The notes under the pieces were generated by a model, which did not search any database, was not told where the DNA came from, and worked only from the letters and a program-made list of their open reading frames with translations. From a virus: a DNA stretch of 32,880 nucleotides. Position numbers and translations under genes: made by a program. Below are positions 3,077 to 17,307 of this stretch, piece after piece. Where the stretch lies: positions 1 to 32,880 of the IMG/VR virus record IMGVR_UViG_3300029787_000193; one strand, given 5' to 3'. Every line of letters begins with the position of its first letter. The first letter of the stretch is position 1.

Positions 3077-3107
3077 TAATAACAATAAAAACAAAACAAA
3101 ATGAAAA
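3077..3107 (+). repeat. A-rich 5' leader, copy 1
   Basis: The 31 bases at 3077-3107 are identical to 3356-3386, including the ATG and the next four A. The shared core ends AAAACAAAACAAAATG, also seen at 30675-30692, with a shorter relative before 30401. It has no Shine-Dalgarno site. It probably acts as the A-rich initiation signal used by Bacteroidota ribosomes. Confidence 0.6.
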
Positions 3108-3358
3108 ACACAAACACAAAAGTACCTTACGGAATTGGTCAAAAAGAATTTGATTCAATAATAGCATTAGAAAGAAGAACTAAACTATTAAAATCATTAT
3201 TACTAAATTCAAATTACGGGAATTGGAACTATGAACAAAGGTTAGAAAATATGGAAGTTGAAGTTTTAATACAAATGGAAAAAACACAAAAACTACTATA
3301 CGAAAATTTATCAGACCACGCTAAATTATACAGAATCGATAAAAATTTAATAAAATAA
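3101..3358 (+). CDS. Hypothetical protein of the independent cassette (85 aa)
   Basis: Unrecognised small, mainly helical charged protein (residues about 25-85 rich in Leu, Glu, Lys and Asn). First gene of a two-gene unit with its own host-type promoter and terminator, lying between terminase and the tail genes. The start is fixed by the A-rich leader ending at the ATG. Early-type expression signals inside a late region mark it as a moron-like insertion, probably a host-directed or regulatory protein. No domain can be named. Confidence 0.75.
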   Translation: MKNTNTKVPYGIGQKEFDSIIALERRTKLLKSLLLNSNYGNWNYEQRLENMEVEVLIQMEKTQKLLYENLSDHAKLYRIDKNLIK

Positions 3359-3386
3359 TAACAATAAAAACAAAACAAAATGAAAA
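3356..3386 (+). repeat. A-rich 5' leader, copy 2
   Basis: Exact duplicate of 3077-3107, placed before the second gene of the cassette. The duplicate carries leader, ATG and the start of the second codon, as if the two genes were built from a shared cassette front. Confidence 0.6.
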
Positions 3387-3928
3387 CAGTAAAGCAAAAT
3401 TTAACAGCAGCACAAATAAGATTACTAGATAGAGTAATTTTAGCTAATGGTTTAAACGATAACTTAACATTTAGAAGTTTAACTACTAAAGAACAAAAGT
3501 CTCTTTACAACTTAAGAAATAAGGCTCTTTATATATATGTAGATTCTGATGATAAGTTAAGGTTAAATGTTAGTAGAATGATTAATGATACTGACTTTAT
3601 CAATTATGTAGCTTCTAAAAAACAAGATGTCATATCTGAAAAGATGGATAGACTTAAGAAAGCTAGAGAAGAGCAATCAGTTGCAAACTGGATAATCAGA
3701 AACACTGGACTATCTGCTGCAAGTAAGTATAAAGGTTTATCTCTCTTTAATAATATCTATACTTTCTATAATGAAAAAGAAATTAGAGCTAGAAAAGAAG
3801 AGTCTAAAGAAATTATAAGAAAAGAAAGAAATGAAATCCTTGACTTAGCATTTAGAATTGACCACACTAAGACTTATGTTTATAGTTTAGATAATTATGA
3901 TTATCCATTTGAAAGTAAATTAAAATAA
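3380..3928 (+). CDS. Hypothetical protein of the independent cassette (182 aa)
   Basis: Unrecognised basic protein with a long charged helix at about residues 130-160 (REIRARKEESKEIIRKERNE-like content) and a short Tyr/Asp-rich tail. An N-terminal segment (SLTTKEQKSLYNLRNKALYI) followed by basic helices could bind nucleic acid, but no family is clear. It is preceded by the duplicated A-rich leader and followed 20 bp later by a strong terminator, so transcription of the cassette ends here. Confidence 0.8.
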   Translation: MKTVKQNLTAAQIRLLDRVILANGLNDNLTFRSLTTKEQKSLYNLRNKALYIYVDSDDKLRLNVSRMINDTDFINYVASKKQDVISEKMDRLKKAREEQSVANWIIRNTGLSAASKYKGLSLFNNIYTFYNEKEIRARKEESKEIIRKERNEILDLAFRIDHTKTYVYSLDNYDYPFESKLK

Positions 3929-10825: not shown

Positions 10826-11764
10826 ATGAGAATTGTAGAACTTATCTTAGGAGATGATGAACTAACAGGAATCGAAGCTATTTCAGTAGTAGAAAACCCT
10901 GCAATCGAAGAAGATTTTATAGCACTTAAAAGCGAGGAAATTAAACTTGCTGAGGTTAATAAAGAAAAGCGTATTCTTATGGGTGCTTTACTTGTTCCTA
11001 ACAAACCTATTTATCGTAGAAAAGGAGAAGAAGAATATTACATATATTTTTCAAAAGATACAGTAGAAAAAGCATCACAGCTTTATTTAATGAATGGTAA
11101 TCAATCAAAAGCAACATTAGAACACCAACACACGATAAACGGACTTACATTAGTGGAATCTTGGTTAGTAGAAGATAAAGTACACGATAAATCAGCAAAA
11201 TATGGACTTAATCTACCTATTGGTACTTGGATGGGTGCAGTTAAGGTAAACAACGATGAAATCTGGAATAATTATGTCAAAACAGGTAAAGTTAAAGGCT
11301 TTAGTATAGAAGGTTACTTTGCTGATAAGATGGAAAGACCAAAAGAGCCTATAAACGACTTTGAAGAAGAAGAAGCAGAAGAAATGTTATCGGTAATACG
11401 TTCTATAGTAAAAGAGGATAAGCGTTTAAAGGGTGGTAAGAGACGAGAACTAGAAACATATAGCGATTACCCTTCTGGCGTAAAGAACAACGCTAAAAGA
11501 GGCATAGAATTAAACGAGAAGGTTAATAATAAGTGTGCTACGCAAGTAGGTAAGATACGAGCTAAACAACTTGCACAAGGAAAAGCTATTTCTAAGGAAA
11601 CAATAAAAAGAATGTATTCTTATTTAAGTAGAGCAGAAGAATATTATGATGAGGGAGATTCTAAAGCGTGTGGAACTATTTCATATTTACTTTGGGGTGG
11701 TAAAGCAGCTCTTAGATGGTCAGAATCTAAACTTAAAGAATTAGATGGCAAGAAAAATAATTAG
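10826..11764 (+). CDS. XkdF-like prohead serine protease with C-terminal accessory domain (312 aa)
   Basis: The N-terminal 170 residues match the putative XkdF serine protease fold: GALLVPNKPIYRR (53-65), YYIYFSKDTV (71-80), TLEHQH with candidate catalytic His100, and GFSIEGYF with candidate Ser160. It would trim the scaffold and capsid during head maturation. An acidic linker (178-190) leads to a second domain (about 210-306: NNKCATQVGKIRAKQLAQG, RMYSYLSRAEEYY, CGTISYLLWGGKAALRW) that I associate with several Bacteroidota phage structural proteins. It begins directly at a late motif, and the last 20 bases overlap the next mini-gene. Confidence 0.8.
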   Translation: MRIVELILGDDELTGIEAISVVENPAIEEDFIALKSEEIKLAEVNKEKRILMGALLVPNKPIYRRKGEEEYYIYFSKDTVEKASQLYLMNGNQSKATLEHQHTINGLTLVESWLVEDKVHDKSAKYGLNLPIGTWMGAVKVNNDEIWNNYVKTGKVKGFSIEGYFADKMERPKEPINDFEEEEAEEMLSVIRSIVKEDKRLKGGKRRELETYSDYPSGVKNNAKRGIELNEKVNNKCATQVGKIRAKQLAQGKAISKETIKRMYSYLSRAEEYYDEGDSKACGTISYLLWGGKAALRWSESKLKELDGKKNN

Positions 11765-12629: not shown

Positions 12630-13526
12630 ATGCCAAATCCAACAATTACAGGAAGTAGTTATGCAGGTGAATTTGCAGGGAAATATTTAGCAGCTAGTTT
12701 ATTCGCAGCTAAAACTCTTGATGAAGCTGCTGTAACTATTTTACCTAACATTAAGTACAAAGCTGCTATGAAAGTAGGAGCATTTTCAAACTTAGTAAGA
12801 AGTGCAGATTGTGATTTCGATTCAACGACATCAGGTCTTACTCTTACTGAAAAAGTATTAACTCCAACTGAATTGCAAGTTAACCTTCAGATTTGTAAGA
12901 AAGAATTACATTCTGATTGGGAAGCTGCTCAAATGGGCTTTAGTGCTTTCGATAATTTACCTCCATTATTTTCTGACTTTGTTATCGCTAGAGTAGCAGC
13001 AGAGGTTGCACAAGCAACTGAAAACTCTATCTGGGGTGGTGCAGCAGCAGAAGGTAACTTTGATGGTTTTAAAACTATTATGCAAGCAGATGGAACTGTA
13101 GTAGATGTAACAGGACAATCTGTTACTGCTGCTAATGTTATTGCAGAGCTTACTAAAATTATAGATGCAATTCCAGCAGCTGTTTATGGAAGTGATGATT
13201 TAGTATTATATGTTTCAACAACATTTGCTAAGTGTTATATTCAAGCACAAGCTACTTTAGGTTATGCTAATTTATATAATGCAGGAACAACAGAAATGAA
13301 CTTTCAAGGTATTCCAATGTTTGTAACACCAGGTCTACAGACTAACAATGCAGTTGCAGCTAGAAAATCTAACTTATATTTCGGAACAGGTCTATTAAAT
13401 GACAGAAACGAAGTAAAAGTTATTGATATGGCTGATATTGATGGGTCTCAAAACGTAAGAGTAGTTATGAGATATACAGCTGGAGTTCAGATTGGTGTAG
13501 GAGCTGATATTGTTCTTTACTCATAA
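12630..13526 (+). CDS. Major capsid protein (298 aa)
   Basis: Shows capsid features of Bacteroidota phages: an opening (SYAGEFAGKYLAASLFAAKTLDEAAVTIL), a CDFDSTTSGLTLTEKVLTPTELQV beta segment, ELHSDWEAAQMG, and a C-terminal domain with VRVVMRYTAGVQIGVGADIVLYS. Likely HK97 fold. Enriched in Ala and Gly, and followed by a strong terminator, as usual for the most expressed late gene. It should be the main head protein cleaved or assembled with the protease and scaffold encoded just upstream. Confidence 0.85.
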   Translation: MPNPTITGSSYAGEFAGKYLAASLFAAKTLDEAAVTILPNIKYKAAMKVGAFSNLVRSADCDFDSTTSGLTLTEKVLTPTELQVNLQICKKELHSDWEAAQMGFSAFDNLPPLFSDFVIARVAAEVAQATENSIWGGAAAEGNFDGFKTIMQADGTVVDVTGQSVTAANVIAELTKIIDAIPAAVYGSDDLVLYVSTTFAKCYIQAQATLGYANLYNAGTTEMNFQGIPMFVTPGLQTNNAVAARKSNLYFGTGLLNDRNEVKVIDMADIDGSQNVRVVMRYTAGVQIGVGADIVLYS

Positions 13527-14186: not shown

Positions 14187-14214
14187 AGGGGAGTTTTTTA
14201 ACTCCTCTTTTTTT
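14187..14214 (+). terminator. Intrinsic terminator T3 (after tail tube gene)
   Basis: AGGGGAGTT (14187-14195) pairs with AACTCCTCT (14200-14208) across a TTTT loop, followed by a T-run to 14214. It isolates the RNA unit downstream from structural-gene transcription. Confidence 0.9.
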
Positions 14215-14227
14215 GTTTACAGAGTAG

Positions 14228-14259
14228 AAGTGTTAAAATTATGTTAAAATTATGTTAAA
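14228..14259. promoter_or_regulatory. ATGTTAAA direct repeats (three copies, 11-bp period), set 2
   Basis: GTGTTAAA at 14230, ATGTTAAA at 14241 and ATGTTAAA at 14252, each 11 bp apart, ending 14 bp before the -33 box of the RNA promoter. Bases 14228-14248 are identical to 2951-2971. Confidence 0.6.
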
Positions 14260-14273
14260 ATTAGTATTAGTGC

Positions 14274-14303
14274 TTGTTTTATTAACATTTGTTACTATAT
14301 TTG
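14274..14303 (+). promoter_or_regulatory. Host-type promoter of the structured RNA
   Basis: TTG at 14274-14276, 19 bases, then TATATTTG at 14296-14303. This matches the Bacteroidota TTTG/TAnnTTTG housekeeping promoter with a perfect -7 box. The expected transcription start is about 14309. ATTAACATTTG at 14281-14291 also resembles the -33 part of P3. Confidence 0.75.
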
Positions 14304-14308
14304 GTGTG

Positions 14309-14948
14309 TAGTTAATTCTACAATGTTCTTTAAAATATTTGCGACAGAGTTAAAAGCTCGATTTAGTGCTAAAACCATTAAATGCAGAATCCCAGTTGAT
14401 TTAAGAAGAAAAACAAGTAGGCGTAAAAAAATCTCGGTAAGACGGTAACCAATCCGATTTTATTAAAGAGTAAAAGCGTAGGCACTTCGGATAAAAATGG
14501 AAATTTTTACAAAAAGATTGATAAGAGGGCAAGCAAATATTGAAAGAACAATGTTCATTAAAATATTGAAAGTCAAACAAGGAAATCTGTTTATAGTAAA
14601 AATGTTTGAAGGATTGTTTAAAAACTCTCGTATGAAACCAAACCTAAAAATTAGGGACATAATATTTGAGTTGAGGATAACTGAAATGGTAGGTGCAATT
14701 CCTATCCCCGCCCGCTCACGGCAGGTAGTGTATTAAATCACGCAGACACGAATCAATTAATAGAATATGCTTGAACAGCGGATAGTAAAGGGAACACACC
14801 CAACTATTAAAGACTCTAACAAAAATGAACCGGCAACTGGTAGAGCTGGGAGGTAAAAAAAGTACATACCGGACTTGATTACCTAAGGGAGCGCCTAACT
14901 TATTTGATATTCATTAAATAACCCTCGCAGATATGTGGGGGTTTTTTT
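14309..14948 (+). ncRNA. Large structured noncoding RNA, about 640 nt, family not recognised
   Basis: No credible gene lies here. The block has a near-consensus promoter and an intrinsic terminator of its own. By eye: a hairpin at 14307-14322 (TGTAG/CTACA); a 10-bp helix joining the two ends, ATATTTGCGA 14335-14344 with TCGCAGATAT 14925-14934; a second long-range helix AAGTAGGCG 14415-14423 with CGCCTAACTT 14892-14901 (one bulge); and hairpins at 14347-14359, 14361-14383, 14492-14509 (GGAA loop), 14643-14655, 14706-14724, 14782-14807 and 14851-14884 (nested). A GC-rich patch near 14700-14725 stands out from the genome. Size, phage setting and nested long-range pairing recall giant phage RNAs such as GOLLD and ROOL, but I cannot match it to either. 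Confidence 0.75.
14922..14948 (+). terminator. Intrinsic terminator T4 (end of structured RNA)
   Basis: CCCTCGCA (14922-14929), loop GATA, TGTGGGGG (14934-14941), then seven T (14942-14948). The left arm and loop are also the 3' strand of the end-to-end helix with 14335-14344, so the two structures exclude each other. Confidence 0.9.
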
Positions 14949-14952
14949 ATGT

Positions 14953-14983
14953 ACAAAATTTAAAGATAGTGCGTTATATAAGT
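14953..14983 (+). promoter_or_regulatory. Late promoter motif 5 (portal operon)
   Basis: ACAAAAT at 14953-14959 and CGTTATATAAGT at 14972-14983, followed directly by ATG at 14984. It stands 4 bp after the T-run of the RNA terminator, so the late portal operon restarts at once. Confidence 0.65.
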
Positions 14984-15331
14984 ATGAAACATTTAACTAC
15001 ATCTGCTTCAGCACAAACTTTAAAAATAATTCCTAGAAGTTATGCTAGTACAGTTAGTATGATACTAAGAGACGATTCTACAAATACCTCAACAACATAC
15101 AGTAGCATAAGCACCTCAACAGACAAAAACTATCTAGTAATATCTAAGGCATTAAGTCCTGTATTAGTAGAAGGTAGATTTTATGATATGACTGTTAAAG
15201 AGGGAGCAAGTGTAATTTATAAAGACAAAATATTTTGTACAGACCAAACATTACCATATACAGTTAACAGTGGAGAATACACTACTCCTACAGGAAACGA
15301 CAAATATGATAATGATTACTTAATTATATGA
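14984..15331 (+). CDS. Structural protein, beta-sandwich-like (115 aa)
   Basis: ATG 14984 is chosen over an upstream in-frame ATG (14933) that lies inside the terminator, because the late motif ends exactly at 14983. The product is Ser/Thr-rich, with alternating strands (TLKIIPRSYASTVSMILRDD, then VLVEGRFYDMTVKEGASVIYKDKIFC), a small beta sandwich typical of virion decoration or tail accessory proteins. It ends with NDYLII and overlaps the portal ATG by 4 bp. Function unassigned. Confidence 0.65.
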   Translation: MKHLTTSASAQTLKIIPRSYASTVSMILRDDSTNTSTTYSSISTSTDKNYLVISKALSPVLVEGRFYDMTVKEGASVIYKDKIFCTDQTLPYTVNSGEYTTPTGNDKYDNDYLII

Positions 15332-17307
15332 AAAATAGAACAAGAAATAAATTAGGGCAGTTTACTAAAGGCTCAAAGTCAGATTTAAGTATTGTAAATC
15401 TTTCTACTTATACATCACCAGCTGTAAAAGAAGTTAGAGGTAAAGACTTTATTGAATACGGAGAAGATAACAACTACTTTCAATACTTAATAGACAGATA
15501 CAACGGAAGTCCTACTAATAACGCTATTATAAATGGTGTTAGTGAGATGATTTACGGAAAAGGCTTAGATGCGACCAATTCAAATAAAAAACCTAATGAG
15601 TACGCTCAAATGATGAGCTTGTTTACCAAAGATTGTACTAGAAAGTTATGTTATGATTTAAAATTAATGGGTCAATGTGCAATACAAATTATCTACTCTA
15701 AAAACAGAACTAAGATTGTACAAGTTGAACACATACCCATAGAAACTATACGAGCTGAGAAATGTGATGAAAAAGGAGATATAAATGCATATTATTATTT
15801 TAGTGATTGGAGCAAGTATAAGCGAGGAAATGAGTTAAAACGTATCCCAGCATTCGGAACGTCTAAAGAAGCCTTAGAGATACTTTATATTAAGCCATAC
15901 AGGGCAGGTTTTAAATATTATAGTCCTGTAGATTATCAAGGGGGTACACAATACGCTGAATTAGAAGAAGAAATATCTAATTATCACCTAAACAACATTT
16001 TAAACGGTCTAGCTCCTAGTATGTTGATTAACTTTAACAATGGTACGCCAGACCCTGAGCAAAGAGAAATGATAGAAAGAAGAATCTACGAAAAGTTTTC
16101 AGGTAGTTCTAATGCTGGGAAGTTTATCTTAGCTTTTAATGACAATCCTGATACTGCTGCTAGTATTGAGCCTGTACAGTTGAGTGATGCACATCAACAA
16201 TACCAATTTTTAAGTGATGAGAGTTCTAAAAAGATTATGGTGGCTCATAGAGTTGTAAGTCCTATGCTATTTGGTATAAAAGACAGTACAGGTCTTGGAA
16301 ATAATGCAGATGAGTTAAAAACAGCGTCTATATTATTTGACAATCTTGTAATTAAGGGCTTTCAAGGGCTTTTAATCGATGCGTTTGACCAAATACTAGC
16401 TTATAATGATATCTCGCTGCATTTGTACTTTAAAACGCTTCAGCCACTTGAATTTACAGACTTAGAGAACGTAGAGGACGAAGAAACTAAGGAAGAAGAG
16501 ACAGGAGTGAAGTTAAAAAAGATTGACGGTCAAGATGTTTATTCTACTAAAGAGGAAGCAATAGAAAAAGCTAAAGAAATAGGTTGTGAAGGTTATCACG
16601 TACACGAAGAAGATGATATGACTTGGTATATGCCTTGTAAAGACCATTCTGAAATACAAAATTTATCAGAATTAGATAAGTTTATTGATTTAGGTCAAAA
16701 TGAAGAAGATTTATTAGAAGAGTTTGACTTAATTGATGAAATGGATGTTGATTATGACTTAGAAGATGAACTTGATAAAAAAATAGACGAATTAAACAAC
16801 GAAGTTAAGTTAACATCTACAGGTAGAGCAAATAAAACAAGAAAAAGTGAGCAAGATGGGAAAAGTAAGAAAAAAGGTAAAGAAGATATTACGTATTTAG
16901 TTAGGTATATGTACACAGCTTATAAAGATGGTTATCCTACTGATTCTACAACAAGCTCAAGAGAATTTTGCGTTAAAATGATGAGAGCTAAAAAAATATA
17001 TCGTAAAGAAGATATTATTGCTATGGAAAATGTAGCAGTCAATCCAGGATTTGGTCAAAATGGTGCTGCAACGTATTCTATATGGCTATATAAAGGTGGT
17101 GCGAGATGTTCGCATAGATGGACTAGAAAAATATATGCAAGAAAAGACGGAGAGAGAAGTTTGGGAAATACAATAAGTACAACAAAAGCTAGAACTGAGG
17201 GTTTTAGACCAGAAGCTAATCCAAACAAAGTATCTATAGCTCCTAGAAATATGACGTATAAAGGCTATACGGCAGCGTATTGGAATAAAATAGGATTTGA
17301 AAATTAA
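15328..17307 (+). CDS. Portal protein with two extra C-terminal domains (659 aa)
   Basis: Residues 1-370 fit a phage portal: TYTSPAVKEVRGKDFIEYGEDNNYFQYLIDRYNGSPTN at the start, long helices, and ISNYHLNNILNGLAPSMLINFNNGTPDPEQ in the core. It forms the dodecameric ring through which terminase packs DNA. Two accessory segments follow an acidic linker: about residues 390-440, with GYHVHEEDD and WYMPCKDHSE, and about 515-659, with SREFCVKMMRAKKIYRKEDI and GGARCSHRWTRKIYARKDG. Both look like small domains fused to various structural proteins of this phage group. At 659 residues it is longer than usual portals (about 400-530). Confidence 0.8.
   Translation: MKNRTRNKLGQFTKGSKSDLSIVNLSTYTSPAVKEVRGKDFIEYGEDNNYFQYLIDRYNGSPTNNAIINGVSEMIYGKGLDATNSNKKPNEYAQMMSLFTKDCTRKLCYDLKLMGQCAIQIIYSKNRTKIVQVEHIPIETIRAEKCDEKGDINAYYYFSDWSKYKRGNELKRIPAFGTSKEALEILYIKPYRAGFKYYSPVDYQGGTQYAELEEEISNYHLNNILNGLAPSMLINFNNGTPDPEQREMIERRIYEKFSGSSNAGKFILAFNDNPDTAASIEPVQLSDAHQQYQFLSDESSKKIMVAHRVVSPMLFGIKDSTGLGNNADELKTASILFDNLVIKGFQGLLIDAFDQILAYNDISLHLYFKTLQPLEFTDLENVEDEETKEEETGVKLKKIDGQDVYSTKEEAIEKAKEIGCEGYHVHEEDDMTWYMPCKDHSEIQNLSELDKFIDLGQNEEDLLEEFDLIDEMDVDYDLEDELDKKIDELNNEVKLTSTGRANKTRKSEQDGKSKKKGKEDITYLVRYMYTAYKDGYPTDSTTSSREFCVKMMRAKKIYRKEDIIAMENVAVNPGFGQNGAATYSIWLYKGGARCSHRWTRKIYARKDGERSLGNTISTTKARTEGFRPEANPNKVSIAPRNMTYKGYTAAYWNKIGFEN

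Follow-up and report, generated by a model that had tools for sequence, protein, structure and literature searches.

The window analysed here is the whole of a 32,880-base IMG/VR virus record (IMGVR_UViG_3300029787_000193, positions 1-32,880), whose terminase large subunit has its nearest kin among sequenced phages, at about 50% identity, in phages infecting Flavobacterium. The genes that locate the region under study are:

1783-2949: terminase large subunit (terL)
10826-11761: XkdF-like prohead protease (phage structural family match)
12630-13523: virion structural protein, probably the major capsid protein (phage structural family match)
15328-17304: portal protein (phage structural family match)

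Between two structural genes, and 11 kb away from terL, lies the RNA cassette described below. An ORF listed at 14933-15331 begins within the terminator hairpin of this cassette, and its true start is more likely the ATG at 14984. Many of the relatives L002-L081 have, in a second gene located 1.3-1.5 kb upstream of their capsid-like gene, a stretch of about 42 aa that is 50-60% identical to the C-terminal DUF3721 motif of the portal; in the window itself the motif was found in the portal copy only.

A sequence-only reading had proposed that about 640 nt at this site encode a large, structured RNA that is noncoding, has a promoter and a terminator of its own and belongs to no recognised family, and our analysis supports this central proposal. 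The region is noncoding: as that reading held, it has no credible ORF, the longest one between 14.3 and 14.95 kb reaching 79 aa, a length matched by about 6% of composition shuffles, with no match in Pfam or PHROG. The GC-rich patch that it pointed out is real (peak 0.445 in 14700-14899, against about 0.33 nearby), as are the near-consensus Bacteroidota promoter (-7 element TATATTTG at 14296-14303, TTG at 14274) and the intrinsic terminator (14920-14943 plus a T-run). From left to right, the elements of the cassette and of its transcription unit are:

14208-14214, plus strand: T-run of an upstream terminator, left edge of the cassette (from comparison with relative L002)
14231-14263, plus strand: three 11-bp TGTTAAAATTA repeats in tandem, ahead of the promoter (repeat count against chance)
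14274-14303, plus strand: Bacteroidota-type promoter (TTG, 19-nt spacer, TATATTTG), conserved in ten distinct leaders
14308-14321, plus strand: 5'-terminal hairpin GUAG/CUAC, with GUAA/UUAC and GUAC/GUAC in relatives
14325-14335, plus strand: boxA copy 1, GTTCTTTAAAA, identical to a tested Legionella boxA and the sole exact copy in the window
14553-14563, plus strand: boxA-like copy 2, GTTCATTAAAA, opening the core module
14920-14948, plus strand: intrinsic terminator, its T-run forming the right edge of the cassette (terminator prediction, L002 junction)

The window element TATATTTG matches the Flavobacterium -7 consensus, TANNTTTG (PMC6847099), and the RNA is predicted to start at about 14308. 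Ten distinct homologous leaders have in common the TTG, the 19-nt spacer and a TANNTTTG-type -7 element, and in nine of them the terminal hairpin varies by compensation (GUAG/CUAC, GUAA/UUAC). All ten carry a boxA-like element, GTTC[AT]TTAAAATA, or GCTCATTAACATA in L107; nearly all family members have zero to two mismatches to the family form, and in the window GTTCTTTAAAA stands at +18 from the predicted RNA start. L107 carries TGCTCATTAACA, one base from TGCTCTTTAACA, the E. coli rrn boxA. The Bacteroidota rRNA leaders compared here contain related sequences, namely those of Flavobacterium limnophilum (ACAATGTTCCTTGAAAAATTGA), Persicobacter, Aureibacter and Hymenobacter (GTTCTTTGAATG) and Chryseobacterium (GATCATTGAAATA). 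An 11-bp boxA of a Legionella CRISPR array, identical to GTTCTTTAAAA, raised array transcript levels about tenfold (PMC7862264). The cassette RNA resembles rRNA operon and CRISPR-array transcripts in that a boxA, at the sequence level, lies near the 5' end of a long untranslated RNA, but differs in that its body, for which Rfam gives no match, has no kinship with rRNA and that boxA-like copies recur at module joints. The promoter, boxA and terminator, as predicted here, are well supported at the sequence level. The boxA also contains an ATG, which opens ORFs of roughly 7-62 codons (MF[FI]KILK...) and may begin a leader peptide; a conserved peptide was rejected, since the continuation of these ORFs is not conserved and they end at differing places.

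An accessory cassette and its site

Comparison with close relatives shows that the RNA gene is an insertion. A search with the capsid-like protein gave 80 relatives. One of them, L002, is 98-99% identical to the window on both flanks, and its flanking genes are just 87 nt apart. Because the site is empty in so close a relative, the roughly 730 nt that the window has in addition, between the T-runs at 14208-14214 and 14942-14948, represent a cassette of about 730 bp made up of promoter, RNA and terminator. At the empty junction of L002 (CTCCTCTTTTTTT followed by ATGTACAAAATT) the T-run runs directly into ATGTACAAAATT. In L004 the same site holds a cassette that codes for protein and has a similar promoter and a terminator of its own, and in L005 it holds two cassettes in tandem, the second being a 1.06-kb RNA related to that of the window. 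The cassette thus resembles phage morons, extra transcription units with their own promoter and terminator that one relative has and another lacks at a given site, and differs from them in that the cargo is RNA and not protein and that the site swaps coding and RNA cassettes. The simplest reading is that cassettes would be swapped by terminator-to-terminator exchange. The cassette that precedes the RNA in L005 (about 3100-3720) contains part of a gene together with a tRNA-like stretch (GGGTTAGTGTAATAGG...AAAGTTCGAGTCTTTACCCTA); a long insert interrupts this stretch, and ARAGORN does not call it as a tRNA.

The tandem TGTTAAA repeats, at 11-bp spacing, give four pair matches in the window against 0.15 expected, and are probably sites for a phage regulator carried with the cassette. 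The sole other cluster of these repeats in the window lies just after terL (2954-2982), which suggests that the cassette came from there. The record behind L021 and L099 has the reverse arrangement to the window, with the RNA after terL and the capsid-side site empty.

Homologues were sought in IMG/VR with patterns from the shared 3' end of the RNA, and the core was found in about two dozen phage contigs, mostly directly after terL. A survey of terL loci found the core at 14 of 116, with only other modules at 3 more; module R was recognised by eye in L186-L188. The covariance model R1, run over the whole length of 48 long phage records, detected one copy of the core in each of 8. Some of these records had been selected as carriers of the core, and absence is not proof, since most of the 48 are linear contigs of uncertain completeness. 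The cassette is accessory, and many relatives are without it. BLASTN of the window RNA and of its homologues L102 and L163 against sequenced phages returned only short low-complexity or terminase-gene matches. The sole match of the pattern search in GTDB genomes, L112, falls in coding sequence and was rejected as due to chance, which leaves that search without a prophage or host. A different conserved noncoding stretch of about 190 nt (GTTAAAGTCAGATCCC...CGGATCGGTTGAGTGAGC...) lies just after terL in L212, L213, L216, L217 and L218 and near 4300 in L205, where it follows a tRNA-Met gene; its carriers are a related phage clade, and it may be a further structured RNA that occupies this site.

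A covarying core among exchangeable modules

The conserved core occupies only the 3' part of the RNA, about 350 nt, and is preceded in the window by a domain that we call module X:

14324-14550, plus strand: module X, closed by 14324-14331 with 14543-14550 and 14334-14342 with 14533-14541 (17 perfect pairs; fold predicted)
14564-14900, plus strand: core module, with conserved counterparts in about two dozen phage contigs
14690-14897, plus strand: long-range helix P1, 14690-14695 with 14892-14897 (UAGGUG/CGCCUA), from pairing in relatives
14782-14807, plus strand: hairpin H0, AUAGU/ACUAU; in relatives ATGGT/ACCAT, AGAGT/ACTCT, AGCAG/CTGCA, AGGAA/TTCCT
14814-14891, plus strand: helix P2, 14814-14817 with 14888-14891 (CUCU/GGAG), 3 of 4 pairs double-changed
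14830-14849, plus strand: hairpin H1, CCGGC/GCUGG, 3 of 5 pairs double-changed
14851-14884, plus strand: hairpin H2, made of H2a (14851-14856 with 14879-14884) and H2b (14860-14863 with 14873-14876), from covariation
14837-14872, plus strand: H1-H2 kissing loop, 14837-14842 (CUGGUA) with 14867-14872 (UACCGG), from covariation

Compensatory changes establish P2, H1, H2 and the H1-H2 kissing loop, each helix of the 3' domain being backed by changes on both strands. The variants include CUCU/GGAG, AUCU/GGAU, CUGU/GCAG, CCUU/GAGG and AAAU/GUUU for P2, CCGGC/GCUGG, CUAGC/GCUGG, CCAAC/GUUGG and CUCGU/GCGAG for H1, and AAGU/ACUU, AAGAU/AUCUU, GUAUUG/CAAUAC and AAUGAU/AUCAUU for H2b. The H1 and H2 loops remain complementary across the family as CUGGUA/UACCGG, CGCAU/AUGCG, CGUAU/AUACG, CUGACA/UGUCAG, CUGAUA/UAUCAG and UUGAUAG/CUAUCAA, with a C-G pair changed to G-C in three sequences and a U-A pair to C-G in six. 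P1 pairs AGGUG with CGCCU, UACCU or CACCU in type I relatives and is weaker in some type II members. For the 14 pairs of P2, H1 and H2a in 19 sequences, including the divergent L104, L107, L159 and L265, 97.0% of cells are paired and 34 cells are double-changed, against 7.8 +/- 2.4 after shuffling (reached in 0 of 500 shuffles). A 21-pair model that includes the kissing helix gave 97.4% paired cells in 13 sequences and 22 double changes against 5.8 +/- 2.3. Although the shuffles leave the kinship among sequences in place, the many distinct double changes and a slide control, in which shifting partners by 1-3 columns abolished the covariation signal, make chance very unlikely. In a swap test of the kissing loop, each sequence's own loops always formed at least 5 pairs and so did 33% of swapped combinations; since several loop types are alike, we rely on the column-wise double changes. 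The kissing loop may form within one molecule or between molecules, both of which fit the aligned sequences.

Around this core the family is modular. A leader is combined with interchangeable modules (X, A, A2, B, C, core, D, E, F, G and Q/R) joined at boxA-like sequences, as the following architectures illustrate:

Window: leader-X-boxA-core
L099: leader-core
L005: leader-A-boxA-A2-boxA-core
L166: leader-A-boxA-D
L095: leader-D-B-core-E-F
L101: leader-B-core-E-F
L102: leader-core-G-F
L266: leader-core-D
L163: leader-core-Q/R
L178: Q alone

Module D thus occurs 5' of the core (L095), 3' of it (L266) or without it (L166). The last 420 nt or so of the L005 RNA correspond to the whole L099 RNA at 89.5% identity, and the 3' part of L163 to that of L182 at 94%. 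Module X had no homologues, its 32 15-mer matches all lying in unrelated contexts with no boxA nearby; boxA copy 1 can pair inside its closing helix and may be masked there. Both points weigh against the reading preferred below. Module E, 3' of the core in L089, L092, L093, L095 and L101, contains GAGATTCGAATCTC or a close variant, which resembles a tRNA T-arm, within an otherwise non-tRNA domain.

The structural detail of the sequence-only reading fared less well than its account of the locus. Its pairing of the RNA ends (14335-14344 with 14925-14934) exists as a complement, but the helix is not supported: the terminator stem and the better 17-bp helix 14324-14342 with 14533-14550 both compete with it, and L099 has the same terminator and lacks the 5' partner. 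Its nested helix (14415-14423 with 14892-14901) is likewise unsupported, one of its strands pairing with the AGGUG of P1 in relatives. Relatives lack the partners, and such long-range complements are expected by chance in so AT-rich a sequence (five 10-bp long-range matches in the RNA region against 2.0 expected, range 0-8). The "dense helices" that it counted as evidence did not stand out in single-sequence folding, where the minimum free energy z-scores (-1.49 for the whole RNA, -0.38 for module X and -0.45 for the core module) span only about -1.5 to -0.4; the case therefore rests on comparative data. What held was the absence of a gene, the promoter, the terminator, the GC peak and the lack of an Rfam family, and the checks that we ran found no homologous protein, an empty Rfam search, homologues and covariation. 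Beyond that first reading, the comparisons added the insertion as a cassette, the restriction of the conserved core to the 3' end, the boxA start and the modular family.

Function and relation to other phage RNAs

Rfam searches of the window region (E <= 10) and of homologous loci (gathering score in 12, E <= 2 in 7) gave no family for the window RNA at gathering or permissive thresholds, again as the sequence-only reading had it, and the covariance models of GOLLD, ROOL, group I and II introns, HEARO and OLE had no match in the window or homologous loci. The family is absent from Rfam 15 and from the literature searched, preprints and subscription papers being outside that search, and it is possible that it was listed earlier as an unnamed candidate motif. 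GOLLD is a large noncoding phage-borne RNA of unknown function with a conserved 3' and a variable 5' region, and ROOL is a non-essential phage-borne RNA of about 600 nt with kissing loops (PMC12286853). The window RNA resembles GOLLD in size, phage setting, noncoding nature and the conservation of its 3' rather than its 5' region, and differs in that the cassette RNAs are often only about 420-450 nt, have modules on both sides of the core and begin with a boxA leader. The tRNA association of GOLLD was not seen, the window and 9 other loci being free of tRNAs and a single tRNA-Met lying in L205, a locus without the core; a further trait of GOLLD is a 14-mer RNA cage. With ROOL it shares a length of about 600 nt, carriage by phages, dispensability and kissing loops, the differences being the combinatorial modules, the Bacteroidota phage setting and the lack of a tRNA island beside the window copy. 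Large ornate phage RNAs are a known kind; what is new is the boxA leader and the shuffling of domains at boxA-like joints.

The cassette probably encodes a trans-acting, boxA-protected modular RNA moron, analogous to GOLLD and ROOL and unrelated to them in sequence. We infer its expression, its action in trans and its molecular target. In this reading the element is an accessory cassette, exchanged between terminator T-runs of Bacteroidota phages, that carries TGTTAAA repeats, a Bacteroidota promoter, the noncoding RNA gene and a terminator. The transcript would start with a small hairpin and a boxA that recruits host NusB-S10, as in rRNA and CRISPR-array leaders, and keeps the polymerase going through the long untranslated RNA. 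It would fold as independent domains, module X with its 17-bp closure and the core of about 350 nt with P1, P2, H1, H2 and the kissing loop, the core being joined with other modules at boxA-like joints across phages. The RNA would then act in trans during infection as a structural or scaffold RNA, in the manner of GOLLD and ROOL, with modules adding or changing binding surfaces.

The 5' boxA and the position in the late gene block would also suit an antitermination or leader RNA acting in cis, in which boxA and the structured core modify RNA polymerase to read into downstream late genes (cf. lambda nut, HK022 put). This reading is unlikely but keeps some weight, because in L103, L104 and L118 the core runs straight into a protein ORF with no terminator between, an arrangement that counts against action in trans and suits a cis element equally. 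Most members, however, end in a strong terminator of their own, the cassette stands at two different sites before different genes, relatives that are otherwise near-identical do without it, and a cis role does not explain the shuffled modules.

We consider it improbable that the RNA is a decoy or sponge, whose boxA repeats would titrate NusB-S10 or whose modules, as separate counter-defence devices, would mimic host-defence targets. Highly transcribed lambda nutL RNA titrates Nus factors (PMC4807359), up to three boxA copies occur per RNA (L005), and counter-defence loci typically have contents that are accessory, mosaic and quick to change. Against this, most members have a single boxA, and the kissing-loop core keeps its structure while its sequence changes, which suggests an architecture and not the mimicry of one fixed target.

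The usual position directly after terL and the kissing-loop motif recall the pRNA of phi29, a phage RNA with kissing loops, and a packaging RNA whose loops form a ring on the terminase might be envisaged. We regard this as highly improbable, since most close relatives with the same terL lack the RNA and the window copy is 11 kb from terL; size, structure, modularity and accessory distribution also differ from pRNA, with which homology was compared through Rfam. Equally remote is a degenerate intron or other selfish RNA with no host function, which an inserted element with modular additions might suggest, but which has no group I, group II or HEARO match in Rfam, has its own promoter and terminator, never lies inside a gene in the studied set and shows compensatory changes, that is, selection on structure.

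Taking the trans-acting modular RNA as the preferred reading, we tentatively put forward, as something quite possible, that this is a new class of phage RNA made like a construction kit: independently folding domains bounded by boxA-derived joints would be shuffled between phages through recombination, with a kissing-loop core at the centre, and each phage would thereby obtain a tailor-made trans-acting multi-domain RNA machine, be it scaffold, cage or counter-defence device. The roles of GOLLD and ROOL are not known, and few independent families of large phage RNAs are at hand for comparison. The present family offers natural versions from compact (about 420 nt) to long (more than 1 kb) whose domains evolution has swapped, and comparing them gives a way to test what each domain does. 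The family further suggests that phages borrow the boxA antitermination of host rRNA to make long untranslated RNAs.
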